IMG/VR virus record: IMGVR_UViG_3300021519_000023
Location: 1-37,504 of that record
Length of the DNA stretch: 37,504 bases
Direction: 5' to 3' (one strand)
From: a virus
Shown here: in pieces, positions 5,534 to 33,713 of the stretch
Numbering within the stretch: the stretch's first letter is position 1
How the letters are laid out: each line of letters starts with the position of its first letter
The notes under the pieces: generated by a model
Told to the model about the DNA's origin: nothing
Seen by the model: only the letters and a program-made list of their open reading frames with translations
Database searches by the model: none
Translations under genes and position numbers: made by a program

Positions 5534-5539
5534 AGTCTA
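5534..5539 (-). promoter_or_regulatory. Leaderless-type -10 box before the 392-aa gene
   Basis: TAGACT lies exactly six bases upstream of the ATG at 5527 and overlaps the TAG stop of the preceding gene. The spacing puts transcription start at or next to the start codon, as in leaderless mRNAs. The hexamer fits TANNNT but is not a strong consensus; the call rests on the repeated pattern across the window. Confidence 0.4.
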
Positions 5540-7621
5540 CTTTACCTTTGGCTTTACGGTAATCCACTCTTTGCCGTTCCAACGATGCGTTTTGCCGCCC
5601 CACTTCTTTGTTTCACCAATCTTAAAGACCTTGTCTCCCTTGGGAGTAGTCGAAGGCGTAGCCTCAGAAGGCGCTGTGGATCCCGTAGAGGGCGCTGTAG
5701 AGCCCGCAGAGGGCGCTGTGGCAGCCGGCGGAGCGACATACCCATAAGCCTCTGGGTTTGCCAGCATCTTGTCCAGGGCGTCCTTAAGGGCGTTAGAACG
5801 CGTCTGCTGAACGTCAGCGATTCCGCCACCAAGCGTACCGCGCACAAGATCCGTATAACCAAGAGCGTTACCAGTAGTAGCACGCTCAGATTCGCTTTGG
5901 CTTTGACCGCCACCAGTAGTGCCGCCGGCTCGTTGCTGCTCAAGCAGATCGGCTCGCGCCTGCTTTTGCTTAAGAATCATATTACCGAGGGCTGTGCCGA
6001 CAAGGTTTGTGTCGCCGCCAGCAGTATTGGGATTAACTTGGAAGTCGAGGTAATTCTTGCCAGTTACGGTCGCGCCACTAACATTACCCATCGGAGCGAG
6101 CTTGAGTGTGTACTTCGACCAGTCAATTACCTTGTTTGGGTCGCCACCGAGGAGTGTGTTTGGGTCGATGACTTGACCATTCTCGTCAGCGAGTCCCATG
6201 CCGGTTTTGGCATATAGAGCCTTTAGCGCGGCGGCGGCACTATTGTTGGCTGCGCCCATGCCGAGCTCGGGATTGTTGTTTAGCTGGTTTTGGACGAAGT
6301 CGGCGGCGCTGGTGCCGGATGGTGGTGGTGTATCTGGTGTTGTTGTTGCGGCTGCGCCCTCGAGGGCTGTTGTGTCTTCGGGTGTTGTGTTCTGGCTTGT
6401 TGCCGTGTCGCCAATGCCCTTAGCTTCGCCAACTCCATGAGCGTTTGTTTCACGCGAAACACTACCGGAAGGCTTGGGTGCTACCTCGGCAACATACTTA
6501 CCATCCCGATAGTGAATATTCCAAGGAACACCAGATCCACCAACAAACGATGCGACTACGGAACCTTCTTTAATGCCGACCTTAGAGTTTCCAATGGAGG
6601 CTTGCTGCTTTTTAATTGCGTTAGAAATCGCCGCCTGGTCAACGCCCGTGAGATCAACCTTGCTTGGCATCGAAACTTTTACGCCACCAACATTACGCGG
6701 CTGAACAACCCCGCGAAACGGAGCTCCCTTGTCTTGAGCCGCTCCGGCCACTGTGGGAGCCGCGCCACTAGCTGCGGGAGCTGCACCATTTCCGGCACCA
6801 CCGCCGCCAGCACTGACAGTGGGCCGAGGAGCTGGGGGATTCTTACCATCACCCGGCTTCTTTGTATCAACAATCTTGGGCTTCTTTGGATTCGGCGAAT
6901 TTTGCGTATTGCCAGTTCCACCATTTGGAAGCGGAACGCTGGCCGGCTTCGAAGCTGTCGCTCCGCCTACGCCACCCCTGAATGCGCCACCCGACGATGC
7001 GGGACTCTTCGCGGCGGTAGCGGTACCGGAACCACCAACGCCGCCCTTAAACGTGCCGTAGGGCGCGCCACCAGGAGCTGGACGACCAGGCTGCGGCTTC
7101 TGCCCAGGAACAGCAGCGTAGCCTTGTGTCGGTCCGGTTACTTGGGCGTCGCGTGTCTGCTGGTCTTTTGCGGTCTGAGTAGTATTTGCCCGCTCGCGTT
7201 GTTTTACTGGAATTGGAGCATTGGGGTTAGAAGGCGTAAGAAACTTGCCGAACGCTTCTGTATTTTTTCCTCGCTGTTGCTTAATCGCTTCGTTTGTATT
7301 GCTTAAAAAACCACCAACAGCATCAACGGCATTCCCAATGGCGTTAGCCGTCTTGGTCGAACCACTAACACGCGGAGCGGTTGGAGTGACGGTTATTTTG
7401 CCCTGGCCGGTACGATTGTTGCCGCGAGGGTCTGCCGCTCGAGGAGCAGCCGTAGACGGTGCGGCCTTAGCTGGAACGGCAGGCTTGGTTGTGACTTGGG
7501 CGCTGTGCATTGGAGCGCCGCCTGTGCCGCTCGGCAATGGGATTCCCGCCGGCTTTGGTGCCACGGGCTTTGGTGCGGCCGGCTTTGGGGCTTGAGCTAC
7601 GGGTTTAGAGGGGCGCGCCAC
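5537..7621 (-). CDS. Putative virion protein, 694 aa, proline/alanine/glycine-rich
   Basis: The start is GTG; the in-frame codons just upstream include a stop, and a TATGAT box lies six bases before the GTG. Roughly the first 330 residues are low-complexity, rich in P, A, G, K and T, with many AP, PKP and GGG runs, so probably disordered. The middle (about 330-390) looks folded (GSGVPWNIHYRDGKYVAEV). After another linker, residues about 460-630 are helical with a Q/A/S-rich stretch. The C-terminus, after a P/S/T/A linker, ends in a WNGKEWI module like the one that opens the next gene. No enzyme motif was seen. Position suggests an internal or tail-associated structural protein; a tail spike is less likely because no beta-helix pattern is visible. 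Confidence 0.75.
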   Translation of the reverse strand: MARPSKPVAQAPKPAAPKPVAPKPAGIPLPSGTGGAPMHSAQVTTKPAVPAKAAPSTAAPRAADPRGNNRTGQGKITVTPTAPRVSGSTKTANAIGNAVDAVGGFLSNTNEAIKQQRGKNTEAFGKFLTPSNPNAPIPVKQRERANTTQTAKDQQTRDAQVTGPTQGYAAVPGQKPQPGRPAPGGAPYGTFKGGVGGSGTATAAKSPASSGGAFRGGVGGATASKPASVPLPNGGTGNTQNSPNPKKPKIVDTKKPGDGKNPPAPRPTVSAGGGGAGNGAAPAASGAAPTVAGAAQDKGAPFRGVVQPRNVGGVKVSMPSKVDLTGVDQAAISNAIKKQQASIGNSKVGIKEGSVVASFVGGSGVPWNIHYRDGKYVAEVAPKPSGSVSRETNAHGVGEAKGIGDTATSQNTTPEDTTALEGAAATTTPDTPPPSGTSAADFVQNQLNNNPELGMGAANNSAAAALKALYAKTGMGLADENGQVIDPNTLLGGDPNKVIDWSKYTLKLAPMGNVSGATVTGKNYLDFQVNPNTAGGDTNLVGTALGNMILKQKQARADLLEQQRAGGTTGGGQSQSESERATTGNALGYTDLVRGTLGGGIADVQQTRSNALKDALDKMLANPEAYGYVAPPAATAPSAGSTAPSTGSTAPSEATPSTTPKGDKVFKIGETKKWGGKTHRWNGKEWITVKPKVK

Positions 7622-7627
7622 ATCAGA

Positions 7628-7633
7628 ATCATA
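7628..7633 (-). promoter_or_regulatory. Leaderless-type -10 box before the 694-aa gene
   Basis: TATGAT lies six bases before the GTG at 7621. No ribosome site is visible between them, which fits a leaderless transcript. There is a 26-base gap to the stop of the previous gene, enough for an internal promoter in the late operon. Confidence 0.5.
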
Positions 7634-7647: not shown

Positions 7648-8517
7648 CTACGTCTTAATAATGTAGTTAGCGACAACACTAGGTTGAGTGTTTTCTCCAA
7701 TACCCGCAAACGTGCTTTGGTTTATTGCCGTTTGTGCCTGGTTTGTGGCGGTCTGGGCTTGGTTAGTCGCTGTTTGTGCTTGGTTAGTTGCCGTACTTGA
7801 AATAACAGCCATTCTGCTGCCAGCTTCAATAAGGCCCGGTGCGTCAGTACCGCCAGCAACACCAGAAAAAATAGTATTACGATCAAACGTATAATGGCTG
7901 TGTGCGTCTTGCAGGTGGTTATGCGAGTTTTGCAGGTGGTTATGCGAGTCTTGCAGGTGGTTATGCGAGTTTTGCGTATGAGTATGCGACTCGGTACGCT
8001 CATCACCAAAAAACTGACCCCGAATACGAGTCGTTAACGCAGTACCACCCGAAATAACACCAGACCCCGTTGCGCCCTGTTTTCCGCCAGTACCGGCACC
8101 GACGAGAATACGCCCAGCCATATTAGGCACATTAAAGGAAACCCCTAAAGTTCCGCCGTACGTCACGCCAAGAACCGCATACAGCGTTGGGTACAAATCA
8201 ACCGTATACAAAGAACCGTCACACAACAACCAACCAGTAGGAGCGGCAGCGCCAGCAAATGCTTGAAGCGAACCCGAGGGCGAACCTGGAGTCATCCAGG
8301 CGGTTCCATTCCAAAAATAAACTTGTTGAGTGTCGGACTCGAAAATCATCTGCCCAACAACAGGACTCGGCGGACGACTCGTGGACCTGCAAGTAATTGC
8401 GTTGGTGCTAAGGCTTTTAAATGTATCGAGGGCGTTGTTGAATAAGACCGATCGCGCAAGCTCGCCACTGCCGCTGAGGGCGGATCGGGATTCTTCTATG
8501 GTGAGAGAGGATTCCAC
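7648..8517 (-). CDS. Tail fibre protein with phage tail-collar domain and His-rich repeats, 289 aa
   Basis: The N-terminal 60 residues probably attach the fibre; a short YFWNGTAWM segment follows. Residues about 92-150 match the phage tail collar domain: a PTGWLLCDG motif, a YPTLYAVLG segment and a FNVPNMAGRILVGAG segment, as in short tail fibres. After it come four near-copies of SHNHLQD/N. HxH repeats of this type bind metal ions in some trimeric phage fibres (T4 gp37-type needles). A TATNQAQ repeat follows about 40 residues later, and the tip ends QPSVVANYIIKT, typical of collar-type fibres. Role: receptor binding at the tail. The start is GTG, with AGGAT 11-12 bases upstream. It lies directly downstream of the tail nozzle gene. 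Confidence 0.9.
   Translation of the reverse strand: MESSLTIEESRSALSGSGELARSVLFNNALDTFKSLSTNAITCRSTSRPPSPVVGQMIFESDTQQVYFWNGTAWMTPGSPSGSLQAFAGAAAPTGWLLCDGSLYTVDLYPTLYAVLGVTYGGTLGVSFNVPNMAGRILVGAGTGGKQGATGSGVISGGTALTTRIRGQFFGDERTESHTHTQNSHNHLQDSHNHLQNSHNHLQDAHSHYTFDRNTIFSGVAGGTDAPGLIEAGSRMAVISSTATNQAQTATNQAQTATNQAQTAINQSTFAGIGENTQPSVVANYIIKT
7720..7795 (-). repeat. Tandem 21-base repeat coding for TNQAQTA
   Basis: About three and a half 21-base units code for TATNQAQ-type heptapeptides near the C-terminus of the collar fibre. The units differ at a few bases. In-frame 21-base units can expand or contract without a frameshift. Confidence 0.8.
7908..7990 (-). repeat. Tandem 21-base repeat coding for SHNHLQ(D/N)
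   Basis: Four near-identical 21-base units code for a histidine-rich heptapeptide, preceded by SHTHTQN and followed by AHSHYTF. The repeat lies in the stalk or tip of the collar fibre and is a candidate metal-binding segment. Confidence 0.85.
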
Positions 8518-8533: not shown

Positions 8534-10621
8534 CTACGGGACGACACTCATCGCGTTTGTGTTGATACTTGTCGAGTCGGGAGTGATCCCATCACCAAGA
8601 CGCCCCATGCGGAGCTGGTTAGTGGCAGTAACAATCTCAAATAGTGTCCAGGACGGAGTTCCGACCGTGCCAACGTCGCCGTCTGTGAGGACAATTGATA
8701 CGGCTTGCGAGTTCATGTTTGTGTCGAACCGCTTAGTAAACGCCTGGTTCTGGCCAGCTAGGGCAGTGGGACGCGCAACGACACCAAGACTGTCGGTTCC
8801 AAACGTGTACCGATTAACCCTCGTCCAAGCGTTGTCGGGGTTCGTGCCGAGCACATACGAAGCCGTCAGGTACGAGTTGGCGATCGTTTCGTCTTGGATT
8901 GAGGTAAGGAGTTGTGTGTGTCTAAATCTTCGCATCAACGCGGGATCGCCTTCGGTGTATGCTCGAGTTTGAATGCGAGCTGTAACGCGCTGATTGTTTA
9001 CGTCAACAATGCCGGAAGTGCCAATTCCAGTTAGTACGTCTGTTCCATCCAAATACGATATATCGAGAGTAAATCCTGTGTATTCGTTTGGGTAGATGGT
9101 GTCCATTCGCAATAGTTGTGGGTTCTTGCAAACGGTCGTGTCGGTGTACTTGCCGATGGCATAGACGCGGTTACTGAGCGGGTCCGGGTCGTTGACGCTC
9201 ATGGAGAATGGGAGGCTTTCGGCGTTTGGCGCGTTTGTTCGTGTCCAAGCATAATTGTTTGACAAGTCGCAAAAAAATGTTCCGCCAAGTTCTTCAGAGA
9301 AGATGCTGGTTGATAGGGCGTAGATTTTGCCTTCGATAATTGCGGATCCGCCAATTGTGGCTCCATTGTTCATCCCGTTTCGCCATAGGCGCTTGATCTT
9401 GTTTTCGGTGATGTTGGTGAACGTGTTGCCGTCGGTTAGGTAGATTCCGTCGAAAGCGGCAAAGATGACGCCGTTTGGTGTGAGCTGGACACTGTTGGCA
9501 GCAATGCAGCCAATCGAGGAAGAGAGGACACGGACGGAGTAATTTGCTGTTGTTGTGTCTGTCGTGATTGTGCCGAGTGTGCCGCTGACAATGCTGATGC
9601 CGGTATCGCCGAGGACGATTAGCGTGTTGGGTCCAATTGAGACCGTTGCTACTACGGTATTCATGTTGGCAAACGTCTGATAGTTGCGTCGCGGCCAACC
9701 GCCTTTTAGGAATGGGACAAGGCCGTCGGACGCGGTTACGGGACTATCGCTTGGGGCGTTTAATAGCGTTGACCAGTAAATACGATTAGCTTTACCCGTT
9801 GTCAAAAGCGATGTTGTTTGGACGTTGCCTAGGATAATTCTATCCTGGTGAACGCTAATGCAACCAGCAGCTAGTGGTGTTTCTACTGTTCCACTCTCGA
9901 GGCGTGTGCCAAATACTCTTCCGTTAGATCGCGTCGTTCCCGCCGTGGAGACCATGGCGAGTGTTGGGGTTGGGTCTACTCTTGCGCTCGTTGTAGTAAG
10001 TACTTCTTTGATGCGTCCAACATAATCGGCAGTTGCGTTGTTGGCGTAAATGTAGTCTCCGACAACGACGGTTTGTGGTGTTGCCCAGTTGACTGTGTCA
10101 TTGTTAGCAACAGTTGTGACTGCGCCGATGTTGGTGGGGCTAATGTTTGATGTTGGAAGTTGGCCTCCGCCGGCTGATACAAAAGGCGATTGTGTTCCGA
10201 CTGCAAGTGGGCTAGTTGCTGTGATTGGGAAGATGCAATGTCCACTCCACGAAACTGGCGTTCCTGGAGCTCCGGTAACTGCGGTTACATACGTATCTAT
10301 GAACGTACCTGGAATTAAGAGTACTTGTCCGTCTTGGCATTCAAACGACGACATTCTTACCGTGTTAGCAACAGTGTGGGCAACATATCCTCGATTTGTT
10401 CCATTAGCATTTTTAACGGCCCCTAAGCTTGTGATGACTTCGCCGGACGTGGCTGTTGTGTGCCTGGCGTTTCCGTAGCGTTTCTTTAGCTGTCCCGTCT
10501 TGGTAATAAACACATTCCGAGCCTCGTAGACAAAGCCTTCGGGGAGCAGGTAGGCGGGTTGGTCTTGTGACATTCCCTTGGAGAAGTCGTTGTGGCTTTT
10601 CCAGGATAGACGGCTAGTCAT
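8534..10621 (-). CDS. Tail nozzle / tail tubular protein B-like, 695 aa
   Basis: The length and N-terminus (an NDFSKGMSQDQPAYLLPEGFVYEARNV-type start) fit the large beta-rich tail nozzle or stabilisation proteins of podoviruses (T7 gp12 and P22 gp10 types). In these, an early segment describing a 'gift of parameters' lies before beta-propeller-like repeats. The protein is rich in beta-branched residues and repeats such as NTLIVLGDTGISIVSGTLG and GVIFAAFDGIYLTDG, consistent with propeller blades. It is expected at the distal end of the short tail, below the adaptor. It starts two bases downstream of the adaptor gene's stop, with GGAG nine bases before the ATG. Assignment to the T7 or the P22 subtype cannot be made by eye. 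Confidence 0.85.
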   Translation of the reverse strand: MTSRLSWKSHNDFSKGMSQDQPAYLLPEGFVYEARNVFITKTGQLKKRYGNARHTTATSGEVITSLGAVKNANGTNRGYVAHTVANTVRMSSFECQDGQVLLIPGTFIDTYVTAVTGAPGTPVSWSGHCIFPITATSPLAVGTQSPFVSAGGGQLPTSNISPTNIGAVTTVANNDTVNWATPQTVVVGDYIYANNATADYVGRIKEVLTTTSARVDPTPTLAMVSTAGTTRSNGRVFGTRLESGTVETPLAAGCISVHQDRIILGNVQTTSLLTTGKANRIYWSTLLNAPSDSPVTASDGLVPFLKGGWPRRNYQTFANMNTVVATVSIGPNTLIVLGDTGISIVSGTLGTITTDTTTANYSVRVLSSSIGCIAANSVQLTPNGVIFAAFDGIYLTDGNTFTNITENKIKRLWRNGMNNGATIGGSAIIEGKIYALSTSIFSEELGGTFFCDLSNNYAWTRTNAPNAESLPFSMSVNDPDPLSNRVYAIGKYTDTTVCKNPQLLRMDTIYPNEYTGFTLDISYLDGTDVLTGIGTSGIVDVNNQRVTARIQTRAYTEGDPALMRRFRHTQLLTSIQDETIANSYLTASYVLGTNPDNAWTRVNRYTFGTDSLGVVARPTALAGQNQAFTKRFDTNMNSQAVSIVLTDGDVGTVGTPSWTLFEIVTATNQLRMGRLGDGITPDSTSINTNAMSVVP

Positions 10622-10623
10622 TG

Positions 10624-11313
10624 TTAGTAACTCCAGCGCGTATCACGATCGTTACGATGTGGAAGTACTCGTTGGCTGCGTGGATAACCAGAGGCTATGC
10701 GTGTTGTGACGTTTCCTTGGCGGCGTCCAAGCCATTGTTTAAACTTGAGGACTCCGGCGTCATACTTTTGTTCGTACGATGAGGCCAGGTTGTCGTCTTC
10801 TCCGACGGCTTGGATAAGTCGTAACGCTGCTCCAAGCGAGATAAGGTAGTGCCATTGCGACGGAATTGCTACTGGCGTATCCGTTCCGGCACTCATGTCT
10901 ACTGGGGCTGATGCAATCCAAATTGTAAGAGCGTCGCCTGTTTGTTGACATACGGGATAGATTTGAAGTTTTGTGTTTGCGCCCGTGCCAATAACTGTGT
11001 ACTTGCGAATAAATCCTGTTGGTTGTGCGGCGTTAAGGTTGAGGATTTCTTCGAATGTGGCGGGCTCGAGGACTTGGTTGAGTGTATCTCCGACGGCTGT
11101 GTAGAGGACGTACATGATTACGACGGAGTCGCTTGTTGTGATTGGAACGGATGTGTCGCCGGCTGTTAGCGTGAACGTTGTTGATGTTGGCTTTGATTGC
11201 GTGTTGACGACGATTTCTTTGTAGACATCATTGATAAACGCTGCGGCCTCGGTCGCGTCCGCTTCCATCGACATGTTTTGTACGCGGTTGGTTAGCTGGG
11301 TAAATGTTGCCAT
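10624..11313 (-). CDS. Head-to-tail adaptor / tail tubular protein A-like, 229 aa
   Basis: Size, position between capsid-side genes and the tail nozzle gene, and sequence features fit the adaptor family (T7 gp11 / P22 gp4 type). It has a helical N-terminus ending with AAAFINDVYKEIV, a beta-rich middle, and a helical LISLGAALRLIQAVGEDDNLASSYEQKYDAGVLKFKQ segment, where such proteins pack helices around the portal. The C-terminus is basic (R-rich). The ATG is coupled to the stop of the upstream gene by TAATG. It should form a ring under the portal that docks the nozzle. Confidence 0.85.
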   Translation of the reverse strand: MATFTQLTNRVQNMSMEADATEAAAFINDVYKEIVVNTQSKPTSTTFTLTAGDTSVPITTSDSVVIMYVLYTAVGDTLNQVLEPATFEEILNLNAAQPTGFIRKYTVIGTGANTKLQIYPVCQQTGDALTIWIASAPVDMSAGTDTPVAIPSQWHYLISLGAALRLIQAVGEDDNLASSYEQKYDAGVLKFKQWLGRRQGNVTTRIASGYPRSQRVLPHRNDRDTRWSY

Positions 11314-12496: not shown

Positions 12497-13666
12497 CTAG
12501 TAGCCAGTCACGCCCTTGAGAATGGCGTGGTTTTGCTCGTTACCAAGTTGGAACGAGTACTCGGTCAGGTACTCCTGCTTTGTCGAGTCCTCGTCGTTTG
12601 CTTGGCGACCCGGCAACAGCTTCGTCGAGCGGAGAGGACGCATCTCTACGTCGTCCATGTCGACCAAGACACCCCAACCGCCGACCTGGTTGGATGTTGT
12701 CGAGAAGTCGTACCAATCTCGCTTCTCCGAGATTTGCACGGTTGCACCGCTTGCGGCGCGGTATGTGGACAACGAAACGCCGTAGTCCTTAACGCCCGAG
12801 CCTGTGTCGTTGGGAGCGAGCTTGCCCAACGGGAAGGACGAGAGGGCGCTAACCAGCAACGGCGATGCGAAGAGCACCTTGTTGCGGGAACCGTAACGGA
12901 ACGCGCCACGCATGAACGTTTCAAACGCTGATTGCGTGAGCGTACCGGCACTTGCCGTGATGTTCGAAGACACGAAGTCGACGATGCCACCAGCGTAGCC
13001 GACGGGTGTCGAACCACTGGTGTCGAGGTCGCGCTGACCGAAGAACAGTGTGTTCTCGATTTGACGCTTGTGCTCGATCATCTTCTTCTTGGCTTCGTAC
13101 TCGGGCTCCTTGCCGCCGTACAGGTCCGACTCGATCAGTGTGTTCGTGAAGCCGAACGGATCGCGTTGGATTTGGCAGTAGTTATACTGGCCAACCTGCT
13201 TGGTGGACTTGATGGTGCCGAGGGTGGCACCTTCTGCGGAGGCGTTGCCGATCTTAATCACATCCGTGAGGTCTGTGATGATAGCGGCGGCAACTGCACC
13301 GATCGAGCGAACGATGGTGAGTGTGTCTGTCGAGATCGAGGAGACCTTGACGTTCTCACCATTGCTCATGCGGAGAACGTCGCCTGCGCGGAAGTAAGAT
13401 CCCGTGCCGGTTGCAACGATGCATGTTGTTGCAATCGCTGTGACGTTGCCGCCGTTGTTCAGGGTTGTAAGGCGTGGCATCAATTGGTCTTGAAGCCATT
13501 CGACCTTTTGGCTCTTCGCGGGACGCGAGGAGACCTTTTGGAGCATGGTTACGAGGGGTGCCTCGTCCGGCTCCAGTTGTTTGATGACGTTGTCCATGTC
13601 AATGACGCGACGATTCGACAGAATCACGTTGTCATCCACGGCGCCAGTCAGAACTGTAACTGCCAT
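12497..13666 (-). CDS. Major capsid protein, SU10/DUF5309-like, 389 aa
   Basis: The length, the place right after the scaffold gene, and the sequence pattern fit the DUF5309 (SU10-type) branch of HK97-fold capsid proteins. An N-terminal MDNVIKQLEPDEAPLVTMLQKVSSRPA segment is followed by KVEWLQD, a beta-rich domain with RAGDVLRMSNGENVKV, then GGKEPEYEAKKKMIEHKRQIENTLFFGQR and a long C-terminal beta/alpha region ending in EYSFQLGNEQNHAILKGVTGY. The 13667-13755 leader carries no gene. It has a purine-rich AAGAAAGAAGAA stretch before the ATG, which may act as a weak ribosome site. A hairpin follows the stop. This is the expected most abundant virion protein. Confidence 0.9.
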   Translation of the reverse strand: MAVTVLTGAVDDNVILSNRRVIDMDNVIKQLEPDEAPLVTMLQKVSSRPAKSQKVEWLQDQLMPRLTTLNNGGNVTAIATTCIVATGTGSYFRAGDVLRMSNGENVKVSSISTDTLTIVRSIGAVAAAIITDLTDVIKIGNASAEGATLGTIKSTKQVGQYNYCQIQRDPFGFTNTLIESDLYGGKEPEYEAKKKMIEHKRQIENTLFFGQRDLDTSGSTPVGYAGGIVDFVSSNITASAGTLTQSAFETFMRGAFRYGSRNKVLFASPLLVSALSSFPLGKLAPNDTGSGVKDYGVSLSTYRAASGATVQISEKRDWYDFSTTSNQVGGWGVLVDMDDVEMRPLRSTKLLPGRQANDEDSTKQEYLTEYSFQLGNEQNHAILKGVTGY

Positions 13667-14810: not shown

Positions 14811-16547
14811 TTATTGGCCGACTCCCCCGGCCCCACCGAATGCTGGTGGCGGCGGTGGGCCAGGCGTCATAACTGCCTGTTGGTCCGGTGCTGCTCCAGC
14901 ATCTGGTGGGGTTGTCGGGGTCGTGGGTGCGTTTGGATCTCCCCCACCAGGAAGGGGGGGTCCTGCACTTGGTGCTTGGGGTTGTTTCGAGAAGTACTTC
15001 GACGGTTCTTCGTCGAACGCTTCTGTTACGTCCTCAAGGATGCGGTCTACGTTTAGGGTAATGCCTGCTTGTTGCAGGAGGGCGTAGTTGTTAAGGAAGA
15101 AGTTGCTCTTCGTAAGGGCTTCGGCGCGCTTCTCTTGTCGGATAAGGCTTTCCGAGGCGTCTTCGATGTTGTATTCGTATTGGCCTTGGATTTCTGCGGC
15201 GTTGAATGCTTTCCATTCGTATTCTCCCGCATGCGTGTCGATGCGGATTGCTACGTTCTGTGGGAGGAGTTGCTGGTTTAGGGATACCCATTGGCTTCCT
15301 GCTCGGCGTAGTGCGTAATTGAATTGTTCTCGCATGAGCATCATTCGCTTGGTGGCCATGTTTTGAATAATGCTGATGCCTGTTGCTGTTGTCTGGTCAA
15401 TTTGCGTGTCGGACGCTCCGCTTAGGTACGACACGGCTCCCGAGAGGTTAGTCAGGTCGCCTTTGAGCATCTCTTCGGCTTGGATGGATGGTTGGATAAT
15501 GTTTGTGGCCGGCGTCCAGGGTTGGATCTCGCTTGGTCGTACGCGGAGGATTGCTCCTGGGAATAGGCGGAGGTCTTGGTTTTCTGTGTTGGGGTCAACA
15601 AAAACTGCGGCGTTTGACATGAAGCGCGTGTTGTCGAGGCGATGGTTTTGCATTTCCCAGAGGGCGGCTTGGATGTCGGCAATGAGCTCGACAATGCCTT
15701 TGCCTTCGAGCTTGAACATTTGTGGGACTGGGCTGGCTGTGACAAATGGGAATTGTCCGTGCCAGAATGGGCTGCATTCGTCGCGGATAACTACTTGCCG
15801 GTTGGCTACGACGGTGAGGCGAATCTCGTTGCCTTTGCGGTGCCACCATTCAATTACTTCAACGCGGCCTTTGGATTTGGTTGGTTCGTATCCTTGGGGG
15901 GCGCTGCCGGACGTTACGTCTTTGAGGTTTTCGTATACGCCACTGAGCTTGAGGCTGTCAAGTGTTTCGTATGTGCGAAAGAAAACGTAGGCGGCGTCGT
16001 CGAGGCTTGTGGCTGCTCCATCCCACCAGAAATCTTTCATGTCGATCGGAACAAATCCTGGTTGTTGTAGAACGGGTGCTTTGGTATCGGACTCTTGTTG
16101 GACTACGCCACCAAGCGTTTTAGTAAATTGACGCGTCTTAGTTGTGCGCCACTCCTCGAGCCATGGGATTTTGGCTGCTGTTACGCCTCGGACAAGTCCT
16201 TGCTTGATAAAGGTGCGGAGTTGCCGGCCATACTCAATCTTGTTGCGTTGCTGGTTTAGTACAGCCTCAAGGATCTTTGCACCATCAGCATCCTTGGGTT
16301 GGACGGGAATGACTTTGGCTCGAGGTTGGGCATCAACAACACTCGACTCGATAAGTTCAACGATCTGCAATGCGTAAGGTGGGTGCAAGTCGGATTGCCA
16401 CTGGCCCTCAAGGGCGCGCTGAAGTTTGGCGTTATATGCGTCGTCACACTTCCGGTAGTGCTCGACGCGCTTTTCGTGGTGTTTATACGCTGACGAGTTA
16501 CAGCGAATAAACTTTTCGATTAGCTCTTTGGGGTCGCCTTCAATCAC
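14811..16547 (-). CDS. Portal protein, 578 aa
   Basis: Length, order (upstream of scaffold and capsid) and sequence fit a podovirus-type portal, the dodecameric ring through which DNA enters. Features are a helical N-terminus with YRKCDDAYNAKLQRALEG, a VDAQPRAKVIPV segment, an FVPIDMKDFWWDGAA segment, an RVEVIEWWHRKGNEIRLTVVANRQVV wing and an IADIQAALWEMQNHRLDNTRFM helix, common in this family. The C-terminal 50 residues are P/G/A-rich. The start is GTG, with a TATACT box seven bases upstream that overlaps the stop of the 91-aa gene, so a leaderless transcript may supply extra portal message. Recognition is by pattern; I cannot assign the subfamily. Confidence 0.88.
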   Translation of the reverse strand: MIEGDPKELIEKFIRCNSSAYKHHEKRVEHYRKCDDAYNAKLQRALEGQWQSDLHPPYALQIVELIESSVVDAQPRAKVIPVQPKDADGAKILEAVLNQQRNKIEYGRQLRTFIKQGLVRGVTAAKIPWLEEWRTTKTRQFTKTLGGVVQQESDTKAPVLQQPGFVPIDMKDFWWDGAATSLDDAAYVFFRTYETLDSLKLSGVYENLKDVTSGSAPQGYEPTKSKGRVEVIEWWHRKGNEIRLTVVANRQVVIRDECSPFWHGQFPFVTASPVPQMFKLEGKGIVELIADIQAALWEMQNHRLDNTRFMSNAAVFVDPNTENQDLRLFPGAILRVRPSEIQPWTPATNIIQPSIQAEEMLKGDLTNLSGAVSYLSGASDTQIDQTTATGISIIQNMATKRMMLMREQFNYALRRAGSQWVSLNQQLLPQNVAIRIDTHAGEYEWKAFNAAEIQGQYEYNIEDASESLIRQEKRAEALTKSNFFLNNYALLQQAGITLNVDRILEDVTEAFDEEPSKYFSKQPQAPSAGPPLPGGGDPNAPTTPTTPPDAGAAPDQQAVMTPGPPPPPAFGGAGGVGQ

Positions 16548-16552
16548 AGGGA

Positions 16553-22725: not shown

Positions 22726-22746
22726 TGATGAGTATGAATAGTCCCT

Positions 22747-23045: not shown

Positions 23046-23179
23046 TGCCGGCGTCGGGTCGGGGCGCAGAGTCCAGCTCCTTCGCCATCGCCGGCCGTCG
23101 AGGCTGCTCGGCAGGGCATCGCGCGGGAAGGGGAACACGCGACCGTGCGTGCTCGGTGGTGGTGCTGTCTGGCTGGTGG

Positions 23180-23208
23180 TTGTTGTTGTCCGTTCGGTCA
23201 GGTACACT
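23180..23208 (+). promoter_or_regulatory. Putative rightward promoter for the accessory block
   Basis: TTGTTG and TACACT are separated by exactly 17 bases; transcription would start near 23215 and leave a leader of about 38 bases with a GGAGG site before the ATG at 23253. Unlike the leftward promoters it is not leaderless. The match to consensus is moderate. Confidence 0.45.
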
Positions 23209-23252
23209 TGGTGCTCGGGCTATCCTGCCCGTCGGTCATCGGAGGTTGTCAG

Positions 23253-24115: not shown

Positions 24116-24122
24116 GCGCACC

Positions 24123-24176
24123 GGACGCGCTGGCAGGTCGCCAGAGCATCGCCCCGGTTCGAGTCCGGGCGCGTCC
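24123..24176 (+). other. tRNA-like element lacking an anticodon arm (54 bases)
   Basis: The 7-base acceptor stem GGACGCG/CGCGTCC and a perfect T arm (CCCGG-TTCGAGT-CCGGG) are present. Between them lie only a CTGGC-AGGTC-GCCAG hairpin and AGCATCGC. The AGAGCA-like end of the D arm is followed at once by the T arm, so the anticodon stem and loop are missing. It is either a decayed tRNA or a tRNA-mimic. A short hairpin at 24180-24195 follows, without a T-run. CCA is not encoded. Confidence 0.6.
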
Positions 24177-24214
24177 CTCCCGCCATCCGGCGGGGAGTAG
24201 ATAGGAGATTCACA

Positions 24215-24697
24215 ATGAGTAGCACGACACCCCGGATCGACCGCGACGCGCTTGCCGCCATGATCGAGCGCGCCTGCCTCACCATCGAGTCGACCCCGAT
24301 CCCCGCCGAACTTCGCGCCTCGGGCGACGGTGGGGGATTCAACGACGCCGAAGTCCTCGCCCTTTGGATTGGCGCGGGACTTGCCAGTCAGGTCGGCATG
24401 GCGTTGGCGCTCGACCCGTCGCCGTACGTTATCGGATTCCCGCCGAAGAATGACGACGATGACGCCGCTACGCCTGACCTGTACGCGGTACGCGCAGAGT
24501 GCCAGACCGCTGCGCTGTACGTTGGCACCGAATCCGACTGCTGCGAGTGGGCTAGGCAGGCAGAGGAGCAGAGCGGCAACGAAGTCAGCCTAGTCGTGGA
24601 TACCGCCACCGACGACGAACGGGCAGACTGGTACAACATGGAAGGCGTATCAATCAACCGCGAAGAAGCCGCCCCCGCCGTCGACCTTCGAGACTAG
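24215..24697 (+). CDS. Accessory protein of unknown function, 160 aa
   Basis: AGGAG stands seven bases before the ATG. Acidic, alanine-rich, with a helical N-terminal half (DRDALAAMIERACLTIE), a middle with PKNDDDDAATPDLYAVRAECQ, and a C-terminal half that looks alpha/beta (EVSLVVDTATDDERADWYNMEGVSIN). No motif or family was recognised. It follows the tRNA-like element and precedes the first copy of the duplicated unit. The codons end mostly in C or G, as elsewhere in this block. Confidence 0.7.
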   Translation: MSSTTPRIDRDALAAMIERACLTIESTPIPAELRASGDGGGFNDAEVLALWIGAGLASQVGMALALDPSPYVIGFPPKNDDDDAATPDLYAVRAECQTAALYVGTESDCCEWARQAEEQSGNEVSLVVDTATDDERADWYNMEGVSINREEAAPAVDLRD

Positions 24698-24727
24698 ACC
24701 CGCCGCCGCGCCCCGCTGGGGGGATAT

Positions 24728-24747
24728 CCGGGCATCGACGCTCGGCG
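24728..24747 (+). repeat. 20-base repeat, copy 1, upstream of duplicated small gene
   Basis: CCGGGCATCGACGCTCGGCG is identical at 25791-25810. It can fold as a hairpin (CCGGGC/GCTCGG with one G·T pair and a six-base loop). It lies 29 bases before the ATG of copy 1 of the small paralogous gene. Confidence 0.85.
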
Positions 24748-24776
24748 CGGCACTCCACCACGAAAGGAACAGCACC

Positions 24777-24968
24777 ATGAAACTCGTTTTATCCATCGAC
24801 CTAGCGCCCGGCATCGACCCCGACGACGTTGTGACAGCGCTAAACGCTGACGTTCTCTGCCGACTTGAGGACGACGACCACGCCATTATCGGCTGGGAGT
24901 GGAAGTACCCGGCGGAATGGCTTCTGGCGCTCCGCGCCGCCGCCGACGAGGTACCGCCGTGCGCCTGA
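24777..24968 (+). CDS. Small duplicated accessory protein, copy 1, 63 aa
   Basis: The start follows an AAGGAAC site. The sequence opens with KLVLSIDLAPG and ends DEVPPCA, exactly as copy 2 at 25855-26070; the middles differ. It looks like an alpha/beta domain with a beta strand first and a W-rich second half. The last bases (CCGTGCGCCTGA) also hold the GTG start of the next gene. Function unknown. Confidence 0.75.
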   Translation: MKLVLSIDLAPGIDPDDVVTALNADVLCRLEDDDHAIIGWEWKYPAEWLLALRAAADEVPPCA

Positions 24969-25762
24969 CCACCGAAACGCGCCGCAACGTACGCGCCACA
25001 CTCGCCGCGATCGACCGGCACTACCCGGCGACCGGGCGCAGCTCCCTCCTGACTCTCGAGAATCCCAAGACCCTGAAAGATTCGAGCGCCTACCTGACTG
25101 CCGTCATGCATTTAGCGCCGGCAGCGTCGAGCGGCGCGAATGTCTGCGCGTGGTCGGTAAAGACTTGTGTTACCGGATGCCTGACCTACGCCGGGCGGGG
25201 CGGGATCCAGCTCGACTCTAGCAACTGGAACAAGATACAGGCAGCCAGGATTCGCCGGACGGCGCGCCTACTCTTGCATCCTGACGCGTTCCATTATGAC
25301 CTCCTTACCGAGATTGCGACGCTGAAGCGACGCGCTGACCGGGACGGCAGGACACTAGCGGTACGACTGAATGGCACCTCTGATATCGCTTGGCATAAGA
25401 CAGACGCGGATCTAGTCGACGCTATCCGCACAATGGGCGTGACGATGTATGAATACACAAAGCGCCCGACCCCGGCAGGCTATACCGATGCGGGAATCGA
25501 CGTGACCTACTCATACCCGGGCGGCGAAGGTATCGCGGCGCGTCGCTTCCTAGAGGCAGGGCATCGCGTCGCTGTTGTGTTCGCCGGTAAGGTTCTGCCT
25601 GCCGAATGGGTAGCGCCGTGGGGCGACGCGCTCCCTGTGATCGACGGCGACGCGCATGACCACCGATTCCTCGAGCCGGGCGGCGTTGTCGTCGGACTTC
25701 GGGCGAAGGGAAGGTTACGCGGCGCGACCGGGTCGCGGCTTGGGTTTGTGCAGGTAGCGTGA
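24959..25762 (+). CDS. NGTSD-motif phage protein (Gp88-like family), 267 aa
   Basis: I chose the GTG at 24959, which overlaps the end of the upstream gene, because it matches the MRLTT start of the gene after copy 2. Motifs in order: SLLTLENPKT (about 26), CAWSVKTCVTGC with three cysteines (about 60-71), a repeated arginine helix (ARIRRTARLLL), AVRLNGTSDIAW (about 120), MYEYTKRP (about 145), VAVVFAGKVLPAEW (about 200), VIDGDAHDHRFLEPGG (about 220) and VVVGLRAKG. This order recurs in a widespread phage family; the NGTSD and HDHR motifs probably form a catalytic or metal site. The alternating alpha/beta pattern may be a TIM-barrel-like fold. The biochemical role is unknown to me. Confidence 0.8.
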   Translation: MRLTTETRRNVRATLAAIDRHYPATGRSSLLTLENPKTLKDSSAYLTAVMHLAPAASSGANVCAWSVKTCVTGCLTYAGRGGIQLDSSNWNKIQAARIRRTARLLLHPDAFHYDLLTEIATLKRRADRDGRTLAVRLNGTSDIAWHKTDADLVDAIRTMGVTMYEYTKRPTPAGYTDAGIDVTYSYPGGEGIAARRFLEAGHRVAVVFAGKVLPAEWVAPWGDALPVIDGDAHDHRFLEPGGVVVGLRAKGRLRGATGSRLGFVQVA

Positions 25763-25790
25763 CGCGTTCCCCCGTCCGATGGTGGACTAG

Positions 25791-25810
25791 CCGGGCATCG
25801 ACGCTCGGCG
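25791..25810 (+). repeat. 20-base repeat, copy 2, upstream of second small paralog
   Basis: Identical to 24728-24747. It sits about 44 bases before the first possible start of copy 2 and about 74 before the internal one, so the duplicated segment included the upstream hairpin as well as the gene. Confidence 0.85.
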
Positions 25811-25854
25811 GGGGAGTCCAGCCGCTACTGGCTGGCAGTAACAAAGGGGATAGA

Positions 25855-26070
25855 ATGACTAGCGCGACTGACAAGGAACGCATCATGCAAAAGCTGGTTT
25901 TATCCATCGACCTAGCGCCCGGCGTAGACGGTGAAACCGTCGTGACTCACCTAAACGCGCTTGCAGTCCTCGACGAACTGCAAGAGGACTACCACTACAT
26001 CACCGATTGGTCGTGGACGTACCCGCCCGGCGACCCTGACGCCGCCGACGAGGTACCGCCATGCGCCTGA
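25855..26070 (+). CDS. Small duplicated accessory protein, copy 2, 71 aa
   Basis: Two starts are possible: 25855, with AGGGGA upstream, and an internal ATG at 25885 with an AAGGAAC site in the place equivalent to copy 1. The core opens KLVLSIDLAPG and ends DEVPPCA like copy 1, and a 26-base stretch of DNA near the start is identical between them. The middle differs (LNALAVLDELQEDYHYITDW versus LNADVLCRLEDDDHAIIGW, still alignable). Function unknown. The end overlaps the ATG of the next gene in the same way as copy 1. Confidence 0.75.
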   Translation: MTSATDKERIMQKLVLSIDLAPGVDGETVVTHLNALAVLDELQEDYHYITDWSWTYPPGDPDAADEVPPCA

Positions 26071-26306
26071 CAACCAAGACTTGGGCGGTGACGATGGTGT
26101 GGAGCAACGGAACGGAGACCGTGACGGTTCACGGGCTGACCGGCTGGGAAGCTCTGATAGTGGGACAGGAGCGCATCATCGAAACCGTAATGAGTGGTGA
26201 GGCTGCCGTCACTGACGAGCAGCGCGACCAGTTCGCCCACGACCGCAACAAGTACCGCGAGACTGGCACGGGTTACGACCTGTACGCACGGGAGGTGACG
26301 GCATGA
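26061..26306 (+). CDS. Accessory protein of unknown function, 81 aa
   Basis: The first residues, MRLTT, are shared with the gene after copy 1, because the duplicated segment carried the start codon with it. After that the sequence is unrelated: a beta-rich start (WAVTMVWSNGTETVTVHG), then a helix (WEALIVGQERIIETVMSG) and a polar C-terminus. No family was recognised. It is coupled by overlap to both neighbours. Confidence 0.65.
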   Translation: MRLTTKTWAVTMVWSNGTETVTVHGLTGWEALIVGQERIIETVMSGEAAVTDEQRDQFAHDRNKYRETGTGYDLYAREVTA

Positions 26307-26557
26307 GTGCCAACGCGCTCCGCGTCCTCGACATGCTGCGCGAAGAAGAGATGAAGGCGTACAACGCCATGCTCAAGGTCGATAACTTTGCACCCGACCG
26401 CGAGACACTGATTGCCAACGCCAACTACCAGACCACCAAGCGCCTGTACGCAAAGGCTCGAGTACTCCTGACAGGAAACCAGCATGAAAGCCGCAACACA
26501 ACGATGGCACCGGATGAAAGCCGCAACACAACGACGGCGGCGCCGAATGAAAGCTAG
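26303..26557 (+). CDS. Small helical accessory protein with a repeated tail, 84 aa
   Basis: GGAGG is seven bases before the ATG, which overlaps the upstream stop (ATGA). The first 58 residues are helical and charged (LRVLDMLREEEMKAYNAML). The tail is a short repeat (HESRNTT.APDESRNTTTAAPNES) produced by the direct repeat at 26484-26555, read in another frame by the next gene. The TAG stop arises in the third, diverged repeat unit. Function unknown. Confidence 0.65.
   Translation: MSANALRVLDMLREEEMKAYNAMLKVDNFAPDRETLIANANYQTTKRLYAKARVLLTGNQHESRNTTMAPDESRNTTTAAPNES
26484..26555 (+). repeat. Direct repeat used in two frames
   Basis: Units of 30 and 33 bases plus a partial third begin ATGAAAGCCGCAACACAACG. 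In one frame they give MKAATQR repeats at the start of the zinc-type protein; in another they give DESRNTT repeats at the end of the preceding protein. Expansion by a 30- or 33-base unit keeps both frames. Confidence 0.8.
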
Positions 26558-26843
26558 AACACAATCCGGCGCAGTCGTCGAAGGTAAAGCGATTACCCGC
26601 TGCACCATCCATATCGGGGAAACCTGCGTGGAATGCGGAAAGGCTTGCGACTTCGGCACGGGACTATTCGTGAATCGGATACCCGCCGAACTGCCAGCCC
26701 AGGAATACGGGACAACGCTAGACGGGTACCTCTGCGCCGAATGCCAACTCGAAGTGTGCGTACTGTGCCTCGAGAAAGTCCTCGACTGGTCGATGGATCC
26801 AGAGCGTGGCGTAGTGTGCGACGACTGCGGGAAGGCGGCATGA
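26484..26843 (+). CDS. Zinc-ribbon-type protein with a repeated basic N-terminus, 119 aa
   Basis: AGGAAA lies seven bases before the first ATG at 26484. Because the direct repeat contains an ATG in each unit, starts at 26514 and 26547 are also possible, giving proteins of 109 or 98 residues. The N-terminus is very basic (MKAATQR-type repeats). The body has CVECGKAC (residues about 50-57), CAEC (about 84-87), CVLC (about 92-95) and CDDC (about 113-116), enough for two zinc sites. It may bind nucleic acid. The overlap with the previous gene is 74 bases. Confidence 0.7.
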   Translation: MKAATQRWHRMKAATQRRRRRMKARTQSGAVVEGKAITRCTIHIGETCVECGKACDFGTGLFVNRIPAELPAQEYGTTLDGYLCAECQLEVCVLCLEKVLDWSMDPERGVVCDDCGKAA

Positions 26844-27163
26844 CGCTACACCTAATCGTGCCAGCAGACGGAGAGACAACGCTATCCAGCGACGCGCTCG
26901 AACTACACGACTACCAGCGCATCGTCGGCGGATGGATCGAGCACGTTCACCTGCCCGGTCGTAACGTGATCGCCGTAGTAAACGAGGAGGGCGCATACCA
27001 GAACGCGCCATACAATCCTCGAGCGTCCGTCATCGCGTCGGCTTGCCTCGGCAGGCACCAACCCCTTGTCGGCACCGTCGTATTTGTCGGGTCGGACTAC
27101 GACAAAGACAACGAGGTGGATCTACCGGAAGCGTTCCTGCTCGAGTTCATGCTGACAACGTAA
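26840..27163 (+). CDS. DUF3846-like protein, 107 aa
   Basis: The opening LIVPADGETTL, followed by LHDYQRIVGGWIEHVHLP and VIAVVNEEGAYQNAPYNPRASVIA, then PLVGTVVFVGSD, matches the DUF3846 pattern found in many phages and plasmids (a small conserved domain with unknown biochemical role). The final gene of the rightward block, it overlaps the previous stop by ATGA and is followed directly by a strong terminator. Confidence 0.82.
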   Translation: MTLHLIVPADGETTLSSDALELHDYQRIVGGWIEHVHLPGRNVIAVVNEEGAYQNAPYNPRASVIASACLGRHQPLVGTVVFVGSDYDKDNEVDLPEAFLLEFMLTT

Positions 27164-30571: not shown

Positions 30572-31353
30572 GATGTTTGCTCCTCGAGCCACGCGGTAAG
30601 GGTTTGGTTCTCCATGTTGTAGCCCGACTTGGTAAGGGTGTCGGCGATCTTTGCGATCGTCGTCTGACCTGTGATGCCGAGGGACTCTTTGATCTGCTTC
30701 TTCTGGTCGGCAGTCAACGCGCCAAGCTCGTCGAGTAGTGGGTTAACGATGCTCTTGGGTGCCGGTGCGCTCATTGGCTCGTCCCATTTACCTCGAGCCC
30801 ACAAGCCGCCACAGATACCGAAGCGCAATGCTCCGTTACGGATCGCATCACCGATCAGTTCTTTGAGTGTGTCGCCGTAGCCTTTAGCGCCGGGGCGCTC
30901 GATCGTTCCCACGGCTGGGATAGTTCTCCCACAAACCGTCATCAAGACCCACATGGCGCGCGGGTTGCCAGACTCGTCACACTCAAGGTAGGGTGTGCCG
31001 TGTTCAGTGAGGCCCATTGGCTCCCACTCCCAGTACGGGTCGATGTCAATCAGCATGCGCGTGACGGTTGCGTGGTCAACGTAGTCGAGCTCGAGGCCGG
31101 AGCCGCGCTTGATCTTGGAGATCAGCTTCTTCTCGGGATCCCAGTACTTGGTGACTGCGAGGTTGAGTTGTTCTGTTTGGTACGTGAAGCGAGGCGTGTC
31201 CATCTGTGGTTCTCCTGGTGTCTTGTTGACAAACTCGGTGTAGAACGGATCGTCGTTGTTGTGGTGTGGTCCTTCGCACTCATGCCATGCGCGTAGGGTT
31301 TCCGTTGCAAGGTCGGGGACTGTCAGCCAGCCCTCCTTGGAAGAGACAAGCAT
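30568..31353 (-). CDS. Rad52/ERF-like single-strand annealing protein, 261 aa
   Basis: The core (about residues 80-185) has DHATVTRMLIDIDPYWEWEPMG, the LTVCGRTIPAVGTIE strand, and KELIGDAIRNGALRFGICGGLWARG. This order resembles ERF/Rad52-like proteins of actinobacteriophages. The C-terminal 70 residues are helical and probably interact with partners. Two starts are possible: ATG 31353, one base overlapping the regulator stop (TGATG), or ATG 31203, with an AGGAG site nine bases upstream, which would drop an N-terminal 50-residue extension. The protein anneals complementary single strands and pairs with the Cas4-like nuclease and SSB. Confidence 0.85.
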   Translation of the reverse strand: MLVSSKEGWLTVPDLATETLRAWHECEGPHHNNDDPFYTEFVNKTPGEPQMDTPRFTYQTEQLNLAVTKYWDPEKKLISKIKRGSGLELDYVDHATVTRMLIDIDPYWEWEPMGLTEHGTPYLECDESGNPRAMWVLMTVCGRTIPAVGTIERPGAKGYGDTLKELIGDAIRNGALRFGICGGLWARGKWDEPMSAPAPKSIVNPLLDELGALTADQKKQIKESLGITGQTTIAKIADTLTKSGYNMENQTLTAWLEEQTS

Positions 31354-31613
31354 CAGCGTGTCACGATCCGTAGACGTTCAACGCGTGACCGCTTCTTCGG
31401 TGTGAAGTCCGGGTCGAGACCGAGCAGTGCATCACTCGACAAGCCGAGTACGCGTGACAAGACAATCAAGTCGCTCGCCCTCGGTGTGCGATCGCCGCGT
31501 TCCCAACGCCCAACGGTTTCCTTCGATACGCCACACCGAATCGCTAGATCCGCCTGTGGCATACCACTTCTTATGCGTGCCTCTCGGAGACACTCCCCTA
31601 TGTTGTTGTCCAT
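31353..31613 (-). CDS. XRE-type helix-turn-helix regulator, 86 aa
   Basis: The domain spans almost the whole protein: LREARIRSGMPQADLAIRCGVSKETVGRWERGDRTPRASDLIVLSRVLGLSSDALLG. The recognition helix is VSKETVGRWERG. The C-terminus is basic (KKRSRVERLR). The length is that of small phage repressors. ATG 31613 is used because a TACTAT box sits six bases upstream, and a palindrome with GTCGGA half-sites lies at about -19 to -29. It is likely to repress itself and possibly the late promoter. No integrase is present, so lysogeny is not implied. Confidence 0.88.
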   Translation of the reverse strand: MDNNIGECLREARIRSGMPQADLAIRCGVSKETVGRWERGDRTPRASDLIVLSRVLGLSSDALLGLDPDFTPKKRSRVERLRIVTR

Positions 31614-31619: not shown

Positions 31620-31625
31620 ATAGTA
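31620..31625 (-). promoter_or_regulatory. Leaderless-type -10 box before the regulator
   Basis: TACTAT lies six bases before ATG 31613. There is no ribosome site. It starts the recombination operon just after tRNA-Gln. Confidence 0.55.
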
Positions 31626-31663: not shown

Positions 31664-31734
31664 CTGCGGGACTAGGAGTCGAACCTAGATTCGTGGATTC
31701 AAAGTCCACTGTCCTGCCTTTAGACGATCCCGCA
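31664..31734 (-). tRNA. tRNA-Gln(UUG)
   Basis: The cloverleaf reads: acceptor TGCGGGA/TCCCGCA, D stem GTC/GAC, anticodon stem GTGGA/TCCAC with loop CTTTGAA (anticodon UUG), T arm CTAGG-TTCGACT-CCTAG, and discriminator G. The U1-A72 pair and G73 are the identity elements of bacterial tRNA-Gln. CCA is not encoded. It lies between the late terminator and the regulator promoter. Confidence 0.95.
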
Positions 31735-32103: not shown

Positions 32104-32994
32104 CTACAGGATGATGCGGTATTCCGCCCGTGCCGACTGGATTGTACCAGCGGCGGCGGCGCGGCTTCCCGCTTGGGTGGGGGTGATCTGAATAACTGGT
32201 GGTCCAAGTACACGATCGGTTTTCTTCTTGAAGCCGCGTGTCTCTTCCCATGTGGTGTGGGCTTCGTCGCCCTGGTGTGTGTCGACGCGTCCAACCTTGT
32301 ACGTTCCCGTGTGTGCAACGATGCGGTTCCATTCGCGTACGCTGTTGGGTCCGATGCGTAGGCTGGGTAGGATGTTTGCGACTCGATCGTGAGAGTGTCC
32401 TCGCAAGACAACATCAGCATCAGACTCTGCCAGGTCTAGTTCCATCTGGTTGAGTTTGGAGCCGGAGCGGCGTCCGCCTTGCCAGCCATGGGCAAGGTCG
32501 AAGACTGTCGAGAACTCGGATCCGGCAGCGCCAGACGATGCGCGGTTCCAGTTGATGCGAAGGAATCCGTTGTATGCCATGTATGGGACTTGGAGTGCGC
32601 CAGCAATTTCGCTGCCGATCTCCCGGTCGGTGTGCTTTCGGATGGTGCGCTCATGGTTGCCGGACAGCCACACCCAGATTTTCTTTCGGACTGGCATGAA
32701 GAGCTCGAGGGCGTGGTCGACGACTTCGCCTGGTACGCCGCCCTCTTCGAATGCTGCTTGCAGGTATCGTTGTGTCCACATGCCAGCGGCGAAGCGTGGG
32801 TCTCGGTGTGTGATGCAGTCACCGACGTCGCCCATGAAGATGATGCGAGCGTCGGGGTCTTCGTCGATCTGGTCGATGTGCTTCTTGAGTAGCTTCTCGT
32901 TTGTGTCTACCGCACCGAGGTGGGTATCTCCAATTGGCCAGACGTTGAATGTTTGTCCGGTTCGGTAGCCTTCTGTTTTGCGTACGACTCTCAT
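32104..32994 (-). CDS. Calcineurin-like metallophosphoesterase, 296 aa
   Basis: Motifs: WPIGDTHLG (D23, H25), FMGDVGD (D56), SGNHE (N113, H114), a DLAHGW segment and RGHSHD (near 198-203), the two-metal site of the calcineurin-like phosphoesterase fold. The length is normal. ATG 32994 overlaps the endolysin stop by four bases and has GGAGG upstream. The substrate is unknown; in phages such enzymes act on DNA ends or nucleotides or cyclic signals. Its place between endolysin and holin is unusual. Confidence 0.85.
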   Translation of the reverse strand: MRVVRKTEGYRTGQTFNVWPIGDTHLGAVDTNEKLLKKHIDQIDEDPDARIIFMGDVGDCITHRDPRFAAGMWTQRYLQAAFEEGGVPGEVVDHALELFMPVRKKIWVWLSGNHERTIRKHTDREIGSEIAGALQVPYMAYNGFLRINWNRASSGAAGSEFSTVFDLAHGWQGGRRSGSKLNQMELDLAESDADVVLRGHSHDRVANILPSLRIGPNSVREWNRIVAHTGTYKVGRVDTHQGDEAHTTWEETRGFKKKTDRVLGPPVIQITPTQAGSRAAAAGTIQSARAEYRIIL

Positions 32995-33701
32995 ACTTTT
33001 GTTACCTCCACAAACATGTTGATGCTGTTGTTGGTATGCCACTTACGATGAACGCCTTCACCCGTTGTGTCGCCCGTGTTACCTTCGACGGTCTGGATAG
33101 GCGTCATAATTGTTCGCTTGACTAGGCCGTAGTCCTTCTCGATGAATCCGATGTGGTCGGGTACGTTGTCTCCGTCCCAGTCAAAGAGAACTACGGTGCC
33201 TGGTTGTACTCGGAGTGCGCGAGTAATTCGTACCGCGGGGCGACAATAGATTTGCAGACCCTTTTGGGCTGCGTCTTTCCACGATGGGCAGTACCGCCAA
33301 TTGAAGAGATTGCCTGTGCGTAGGTCGTAGCCGGCAAGGAGGAACATGAAGGTTACGAAGTCGGCGCACCATGGCTCTCGGTCAACGTAGCCGTTAAGGT
33401 TTTGCTTGAGCGTGTCGATGAGCTTGCCGCGGTTCGGTGTCTCTTCGAGTGTGCCGATCCAAGCTTGTGCGTGCTTGAGGGCTTGGGCTCCTGGACGGCC
33501 GGCGACGAGCTCGAGGTTGTGGAGCGTGACGGGATCGAAGCGTCCCGTCGATGGGATCTTCTGGTGCTCTTGGTACGAGCGGAGAAGTGTGCGAGCATGC
33601 TTGCCAATCACTGGGGTGTATGCTCGAAACCCCTTCGGAATCGGGATGCCTAGGATTCGGCATGCAAGTTTTAGCTTGTATTTTCGTGTGGTGTTTTGCA
33701 T
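32991..33701 (-). CDS. CHAP-domain endolysin, 236 aa
   Basis: The N-terminal 70 residues carry a peptidoglycan-binding-like pattern (GKHARTLLRSYQEHQKIPSTGRFDPVTLHNL). The catalytic part has REPWCADFVTF with C112, DHIGFIE with H183, and TVEGNTG with E206 and N208, the usual CHAP amidase/peptidase set. A TACAAT box stands six bases before the ATG and no ribosome site is present, so this gene may be made from a leaderless message of its own. It would cut peptide bonds of the host cell wall. Confidence 0.88.
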   Translation of the reverse strand: MQNTTRKYKLKLACRILGIPIPKGFRAYTPVIGKHARTLLRSYQEHQKIPSTGRFDPVTLHNLELVAGRPGAQALKHAQAWIGTLEETPNRGKLIDTLKQNLNGYVDREPWCADFVTFMFLLAGYDLRTGNLFNWRYCPSWKDAAQKGLQIYCRPAVRITRALRVQPGTVVLFDWDGDNVPDHIGFIEKDYGLVKRTIMTPIQTVEGNTGDTTGEGVHRKWHTNNSINMFVEVTKV

Positions 33702-33707
33702 GTATAT

Positions 33708-33713
33708 ATTGTA
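33708..33713 (-). promoter_or_regulatory. Leaderless-type -10 box before the endolysin
   Basis: TACAAT lies six bases before the ATG at 33701, next to the stop of the previous small gene. No ribosome site separates them. Confidence 0.55.

Follow-up and report, generated by a model that had tools for sequence, protein, structure and literature searches.

The 37,504-nt window, by which we mean the whole stretch of DNA analysed here, is the entire IMG/VR virus record IMGVR_UViG_3300021519_000023 and belongs to an uncultured bacterial virus. The majority of its genes are found on the leftward (-) strand, which carries a podovirus-like virion module with genes for the terminase small subunit (21204-21668; phrog_4102, E 3e-9), the terminase large subunit (TerL, 19655-21235), the portal (14811-16547, with a GTG start; PHROG portal/head-tail adaptor, E 1e-20 to 1e-24), the major capsid protein (MCP, 12497-13666), an SU10-type adaptor (10624-11313), an internal-virion-type protein (8534-10621) and a collar fibre (7648-8517). 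Other genes of the window encode an SSB, a PD-(D/E)XK exonuclease, RecT, a metallophosphoesterase and an NlpC/P60 lysin. Two tRNA genes, tRNA-Thr (TGT, 19583-19655) and tRNA-Gln (TTG, 31664-31734), lie on the same (-) strand, and Rfam detected nothing beyond these two in the window; the first base of tRNA-Thr (19655) is at the same time the final base of the TerL stop codon. Between terminase and portal two proteins rich in proline, glycine and methionine are encoded (17330-17965 and 16828-17157) that contain internal repeats (D2, D6), and similar MMPPP-rich proteins occur between terminase and portal in relatives. The reading frames at 1-4341 (-) and 34577-37504 (-) are both open at the ends of the window and share the same frame; if the record is circular, they would be two parts of the same ~2,420-aa gene, and a relative (L028:6955-13515) possesses a single intact gene of 2,186 aa at a comparable place just ahead of the lysis genes. 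Pfam gave no assignment for this giant gene, nor for the 694-aa and 392-aa proteins mentioned below.

Nine leftward genes of the window are preceded by a TANNNT hexamer at a nearly fixed distance from the start codon. At the head of the structural run, TATAAT (22452-22457) lies 6 nt before ATG 22445 (gene 22068-22445); this start is uncertain, as an in-frame ATG at 22487 could serve instead, and CGGACA, 18 nt 5' of the box, represents a partial -35-like match. TATTCT (19548-19553), which adjoins tRNA-Thr on its downstream side, lies 7 nt before ATG 19540 of a repetitive, fibre-like protein of 450 aa (18188-19540) with weak fibre matches only, and TACACT (18154-18159) lies 6 nt before ATG 18147 of a lysine/arginine-rich protein of 60 aa. 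The portal start, GTG 16547, follows TATACT (16555-16560) after 7 nt, while GTG 7621, the start of a 694-aa protein encoded by the first gene past the collar fibre, and ATG 5527, that of a 392-aa protein, each follow their boxes, TATGAT (7628-7633) and TAGACT (5534-5539), after 6 nt. TACAAT (33708-33713) precedes ATG 33701 by 6 nt; the 236-aa product (32991-33701) has no Pfam match, but 'endolysin' is a reasonable name because it shows 32% identity over 151 aa to a CHAP and peptidoglycan-binding protein of L028. TACTAT (31620-31625), adjoining tRNA-Gln on its downstream side, lies 6 nt before ATG 31613 of an 86-aa Cro/CI-type helix-turn-helix regulator (31353-31613), for which 31613 is a sensible start because the longer alternative, 31709, falls within tRNA-Gln. 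Both tRNA genes are thus located directly 5' of a putatively leaderless gene.

These eight hexamers had been listed in a preliminary description, whose coordinates mark the 3' base of each; all eight are present on the minus strand, and the spacing of 6-7 nt given there was confirmed, the first base being at -12 in six cases and at -13 in two (16547 and 19540). A further TANNNT box had been overlooked, namely TAAACT (21675-21680), which also sits at -12, separated by 6 nt from the terminase small subunit start (ATG 21668). Conversely, CATACT (22051-22046), proposed as a weaker ninth member, does occur 6 nt before ATG 22039 but is not a TANNNT motif, and this degenerate box was left out of the statistics. 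TACATT at -12 of ATG 37402 was likewise rejected, since this ATG is internal to the gene that is open to the window edge. The genes were said to start with ATG or GTG, which is true for all nine boxes, and to lack a ribosome site in seven cases; SD sequences are indeed absent, although the number is eight of eight in a test for AGGA, GGAG or GAGG. The view that the boxes mark operon starts or subunits in high demand fits the portal and an endolysin, but several boxes lie inside packed runs. Most relatives have an SD ahead of their capsid and scaffold genes, the expression of which is necessarily high.

Gene starts were determined by a simple codon-usage script, and 40 starts of the window were set by codon usage and gene layout, blind to the motif. 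TANNNT was found at -12 or -13 in 7 of these 40 starts (binomial 3e-7), with a strand background of 0.57% per position. When the upstream sequences were rotated 20,000 times, seven was never reached, and ahead of 210 internal ATG/GTG codons TANNNT occurred at about 1% and 0.5%. Two of the eight boxes listed earlier are not represented in the blind set, which omits 22445 and 31613 because each has an alternative upstream start.

MCP and portal searches of IMG/VR yielded about 45 related loci, while TerL as bait in viral contigs retrieved zero relatives. When 64 patterns of the type XYNNNZ were scored at 13 positions over 285 non-redundant starts from the window and its relatives, TANNNT at -12 was the top combination of pattern and position (24 seen, 3.6 expected), exceeding even fragments of the SD sequence. 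In the clade of the window (clade A) 25 of 183 starts carry TANNNT at -12 or -13 (17+8, compared with about 2.65 per control position), and in the sister clade (clade B) 14 of 114 do so (9+5, about 1.19 per control position), whereas the most distant relatives, used as outgroups, have none in 36 starts. An excess of TANNNT at starts over the null expectation, which the preliminary description had suggested looking for, is therefore present in the window, in its clade A relatives and in clade B. Within clade A, usage per genome lies between about 5% and 29%; a partial relative, L007, has no TANNNT elements. Individual boxes recur at comparable places: the start of the structural run bears TATTGT in L003, L013, L018 and L019 (TATAAT in the window), and the slot past the collar is boxed in L003 (18414, TACAAT) and L009 (18248, TACTTT). 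The apparent leaderless use is several-fold above that of seven phages of known hosts (7/33 in the window vs 6/259; p=1e-4). As phages of Mycobacterium, Arthrobacter, Gordonia and Thermus hosts, that is, of phyla that use leaderless genes, show almost no TANNNT signal, the host alone does not explain the pattern.

Sequence features that had played no role in picking the elements were studied in 43 non-redundant elements pooled from the window and its relatives. The TGN of an extended -10 precedes 14 of the 43, compared with 44 of 683 control TANNNT hexamers (6.4%; p=1.2e-6); this mark rests on the relatives, because none of the nine window boxes has it. Relative to the box, G is also overrepresented at -2 and T at -5; within the hexamer, A or T predominates at position 4 and C or A at position 5. 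Immediately before the start codon (-1), 32 of 42 boxed starts have a pyrimidine, compared with 143 of the 357 others (p=1e-5), and so do eight of the nine boxed starts of the window. A pyrimidine at this position is the normal context for a transcript beginning at A or G. SD sequences accompany only 2 of 42 boxed starts in the pooled set, compared with 128 of 357 others (p=8e-6), and 42 of the 43 elements are followed by ATG or GTG. By contrast with these marks, a TTGACA-like -35 at 15-19 nt is not enriched (mean best match 2.88 vs 2.79 in shuffled sequence, p=0.27). A generic sigma-70 scan of 16400-23000 gave fewer sites than shuffled sequences and found the 22452 box alone, because such a scan demands a -35.

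Taken together, the exact spacing, the excess over chance, its replication in two clades, the independent promoter marks and the conservation of the portal box described below support the reading first put forward in the preliminary description. From the sequence evidence we consider it very likely that the hexamers are -10 promoters of the host's housekeeping sigma factor that give rise to leaderless mRNAs of the portal, terminase, fibre, endolysin and regulator genes. RNA polymerase of the host, guided by the housekeeping (sigma-70 class) sigma, would bind the -10 in the absence of a -35, aided in many relatives by an extension of the -10 with TGN, and transcription would begin on the initial A or G of the start codon, yielding an mRNA devoid of a 5' leader or SD. 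Such a leaderless mRNA would then be started at its AUG or GUG, probably by intact 70S ribosomes. The boxes would in this way provide the terminase/portal/fibre run, the endolysin and the regulator with compact promoters of their own inside packed operons, in which SD-led genes (MCP and scaffold in relatives) and stop-start-coupled genes would be read in the ordinary manner. By analogy with known leaderless systems we infer both that the polymerase uses the boxes and starts at the start codon and that 70S ribosomes initiate at the boxed starts.

A variant of this scheme accepts the boxes as real -10s but places the start of transcription a few nucleotides upstream, resulting in very short leaders, or replaces the host sigma by a phage-encoded factor. 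The 7-nt gap ahead of 16547 and 19540 would permit a start one base upstream, and some proteins of the window have no assigned function. However, 6-7 nt from the end of the -10 to the start site is normal sigma-70 spacing, the strong enrichment of pyrimidine concerns -1 of the start codon only, and PHROGs and Pfam found no RNA polymerase or sigma factor in the window, so that we regard this variant as improbable. Alternatively, A/T-rich, unstructured start regions could assist ribosome binding in the absence of an SD on long, leadered mRNAs, with no promoter being involved. SD-less initiation within operons does happen, because many starts lack both elements (of the 357 other starts, 124 are free of an SD, a box and a stop-start overlap). 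Nevertheless, the excess is restricted to TANNNT at two exact positions (the count is 0 at -11 and 1 at -14), no other A/T-type pattern comes near TANNNT at -12, and TGN, the hexamer interior and the pyrimidine at -1 are features of promoters and not of ribosome binding, which makes this explanation very improbable.

Ahead of the portal gene, TATACT or TAATCT occurs at -12 or -13 in 11 of 12 distinct portal upstream sequences of the window clade, followed by ATG or GTG starts. The gene 5' of the portal in most relatives encodes 91 aa and ends in Ala-Leu-Tyr-stop. In L009, L018 and L021 fibre-like or other genes have been inserted 5' of the portal and the box is retained, while L007 ends its upstream gene with the same Ala-Leu-Tyr-stop, encoded by CTTTATTAA, and has lost the box; coding therefore does not force the portal box. 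In clade B the portal box is mostly absent although TANNNT is used elsewhere, which indicates gain and loss by lineage, and, together with its loss in L007, that the box is not essential everywhere. Least credible among the alternatives is a coincidence of gene packing, in which an upstream stop codon TAA or TAG and conserved C-terminal codons supply TA...T near the next start: the TAG of TAGACT (5539-5537) does terminate the upstream gene, and the portal box of the window runs into the final codons and stop of its neighbour, but only one of nine window boxes begins with an upstream stop, the portal box outlasts the replacement of the upstream gene and, in reverse, disappears in L007 where the amino acids persist, boxes also follow both tRNA genes with no protein gene immediately upstream, and neither internal codons nor rotations reproduce the excess.

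Concerning the host, the preliminary description had named an actinobacterium or a Deinococcus. The former fits and is, judging from the gene content, the probable host: all 183 phage matches of RecT are actinobacteriophages, Arthrobacter phages are nearest to the N-terminal half of TerL among named isolates, and the lysins of the group are peptidoglycan peptidases (NlpC/P60, CHAP or M23, some with peptidoglycan-binding domains). GP88 is present in a relative. MCP and portal are nearest to phages of Proteobacteria and cyanobacteria, at a remote 20-33%. The actinobacterial marker WhiB is absent from the window and 12 relatives, an absence that is uninformative. A member of the Deinococcota is unsupported and a most doubtful candidate; the Thermus phage Riverbug shows only weak TerL similarity (23%), and its own genes are practically devoid of the TANNNT signal (1 of 49). 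An MCP-alignment scan of bacterial genomes revealed no close prophage, and the remote matches obtained (24-28%, in a Phycisphaerales bin and a Bacteroidetes bin) were discarded as indicators of the host.

To our knowledge, leaderless expression is well established in bacteria but has rarely been seen in so systematic a form in any phage. The leaderless gene of phage lambda is the cI repressor. In cellular genomes, TANNNT about 12 bp 5' of the start marks leaderless genes of Actinobacteria and Deinococcus-Thermus (Zheng et al. 2011, PMC3160421) and acts as -10 in D. radiodurans (Zhong et al. 2025, PMC12340547). The elements described here share with these the hexamer, the distance from its first T to the start, ATG or GTG starts and the lack of SD and -35, and the blind count of 7/40 comes near the mean of 19% for actinobacteria; they differ in belonging to uncultured podovirus-like phages, in being located in structural operons and in the extended -10 of relatives. 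Among phages, one leaderless gene is recorded for lambda (PMC3160421), and gene 90 of mycobacteriophage Adephagia has a transcript described as putatively leaderless (PMC11373665). As proposed here, a phage gene is transcribed from its start codon in both, but these are single genes (repressor, toxin-antitoxin), whereas the present pattern extends over the whole genome and takes in portal, terminase, fibre and lysis genes. Similarly, the bacterial extended -10 (TGN-TATAAT) finds its counterpart in the 14 pooled elements with TGN at the exact position and no -35, unlike the window's own boxes.

The boxes of this group represent a known mode of expression in a new phage lineage that makes unusually heavy use of it. 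They allow gene starts to be corrected in an uncultured phage group, in which SD-based callers would miss or lengthen such genes, they provide a clue to the host that is free of cultivation, and the lineage is a test bed for the benefit of leaderless initiation to a virus. More tentatively, we may be dealing with a widespread phage lineage whose late region is broken into separately promoted leaderless cassettes. If so, each inserted or rearranged virion gene would carry a promoter of ~15 bp that doubles as translation start signal, genes could shift slots without needing a neighbour's ribosome site, as a gene with the N-terminus MTYVAP seemingly did, and dose would be fixed gene by gene. This N-terminus is common to the fibre-like gene at 18188-19540 and to that of L035 (8726-9736), which has TAGGAT at -12 and a genomic slot different from the window's. 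From their sequences, MTYVAP-type fibre-like genes look like mobile cassettes with their own promoter. The gene follows TerL and tRNA-Thr in the window and precedes the portal in L035, and sister-clade loci contain similar MTYVV/MPYVV starts, also with boxes.

Two further observations concern the composition of the window. The leftward genes avoid the codons CTG, TTG, TTA, CAT, ATA, TGC and TGT, which is unusual at 55% GC. The opposite strand carries a block at 22722-27163 (+) with a GC content of up to 64% and a different codon usage, which from these features looks as if acquired from another source; it comprises small genes, several with clear SD sites, and duplicated genes at 24777-24968 and 25855-26070 (repeats D4, D5, D7).
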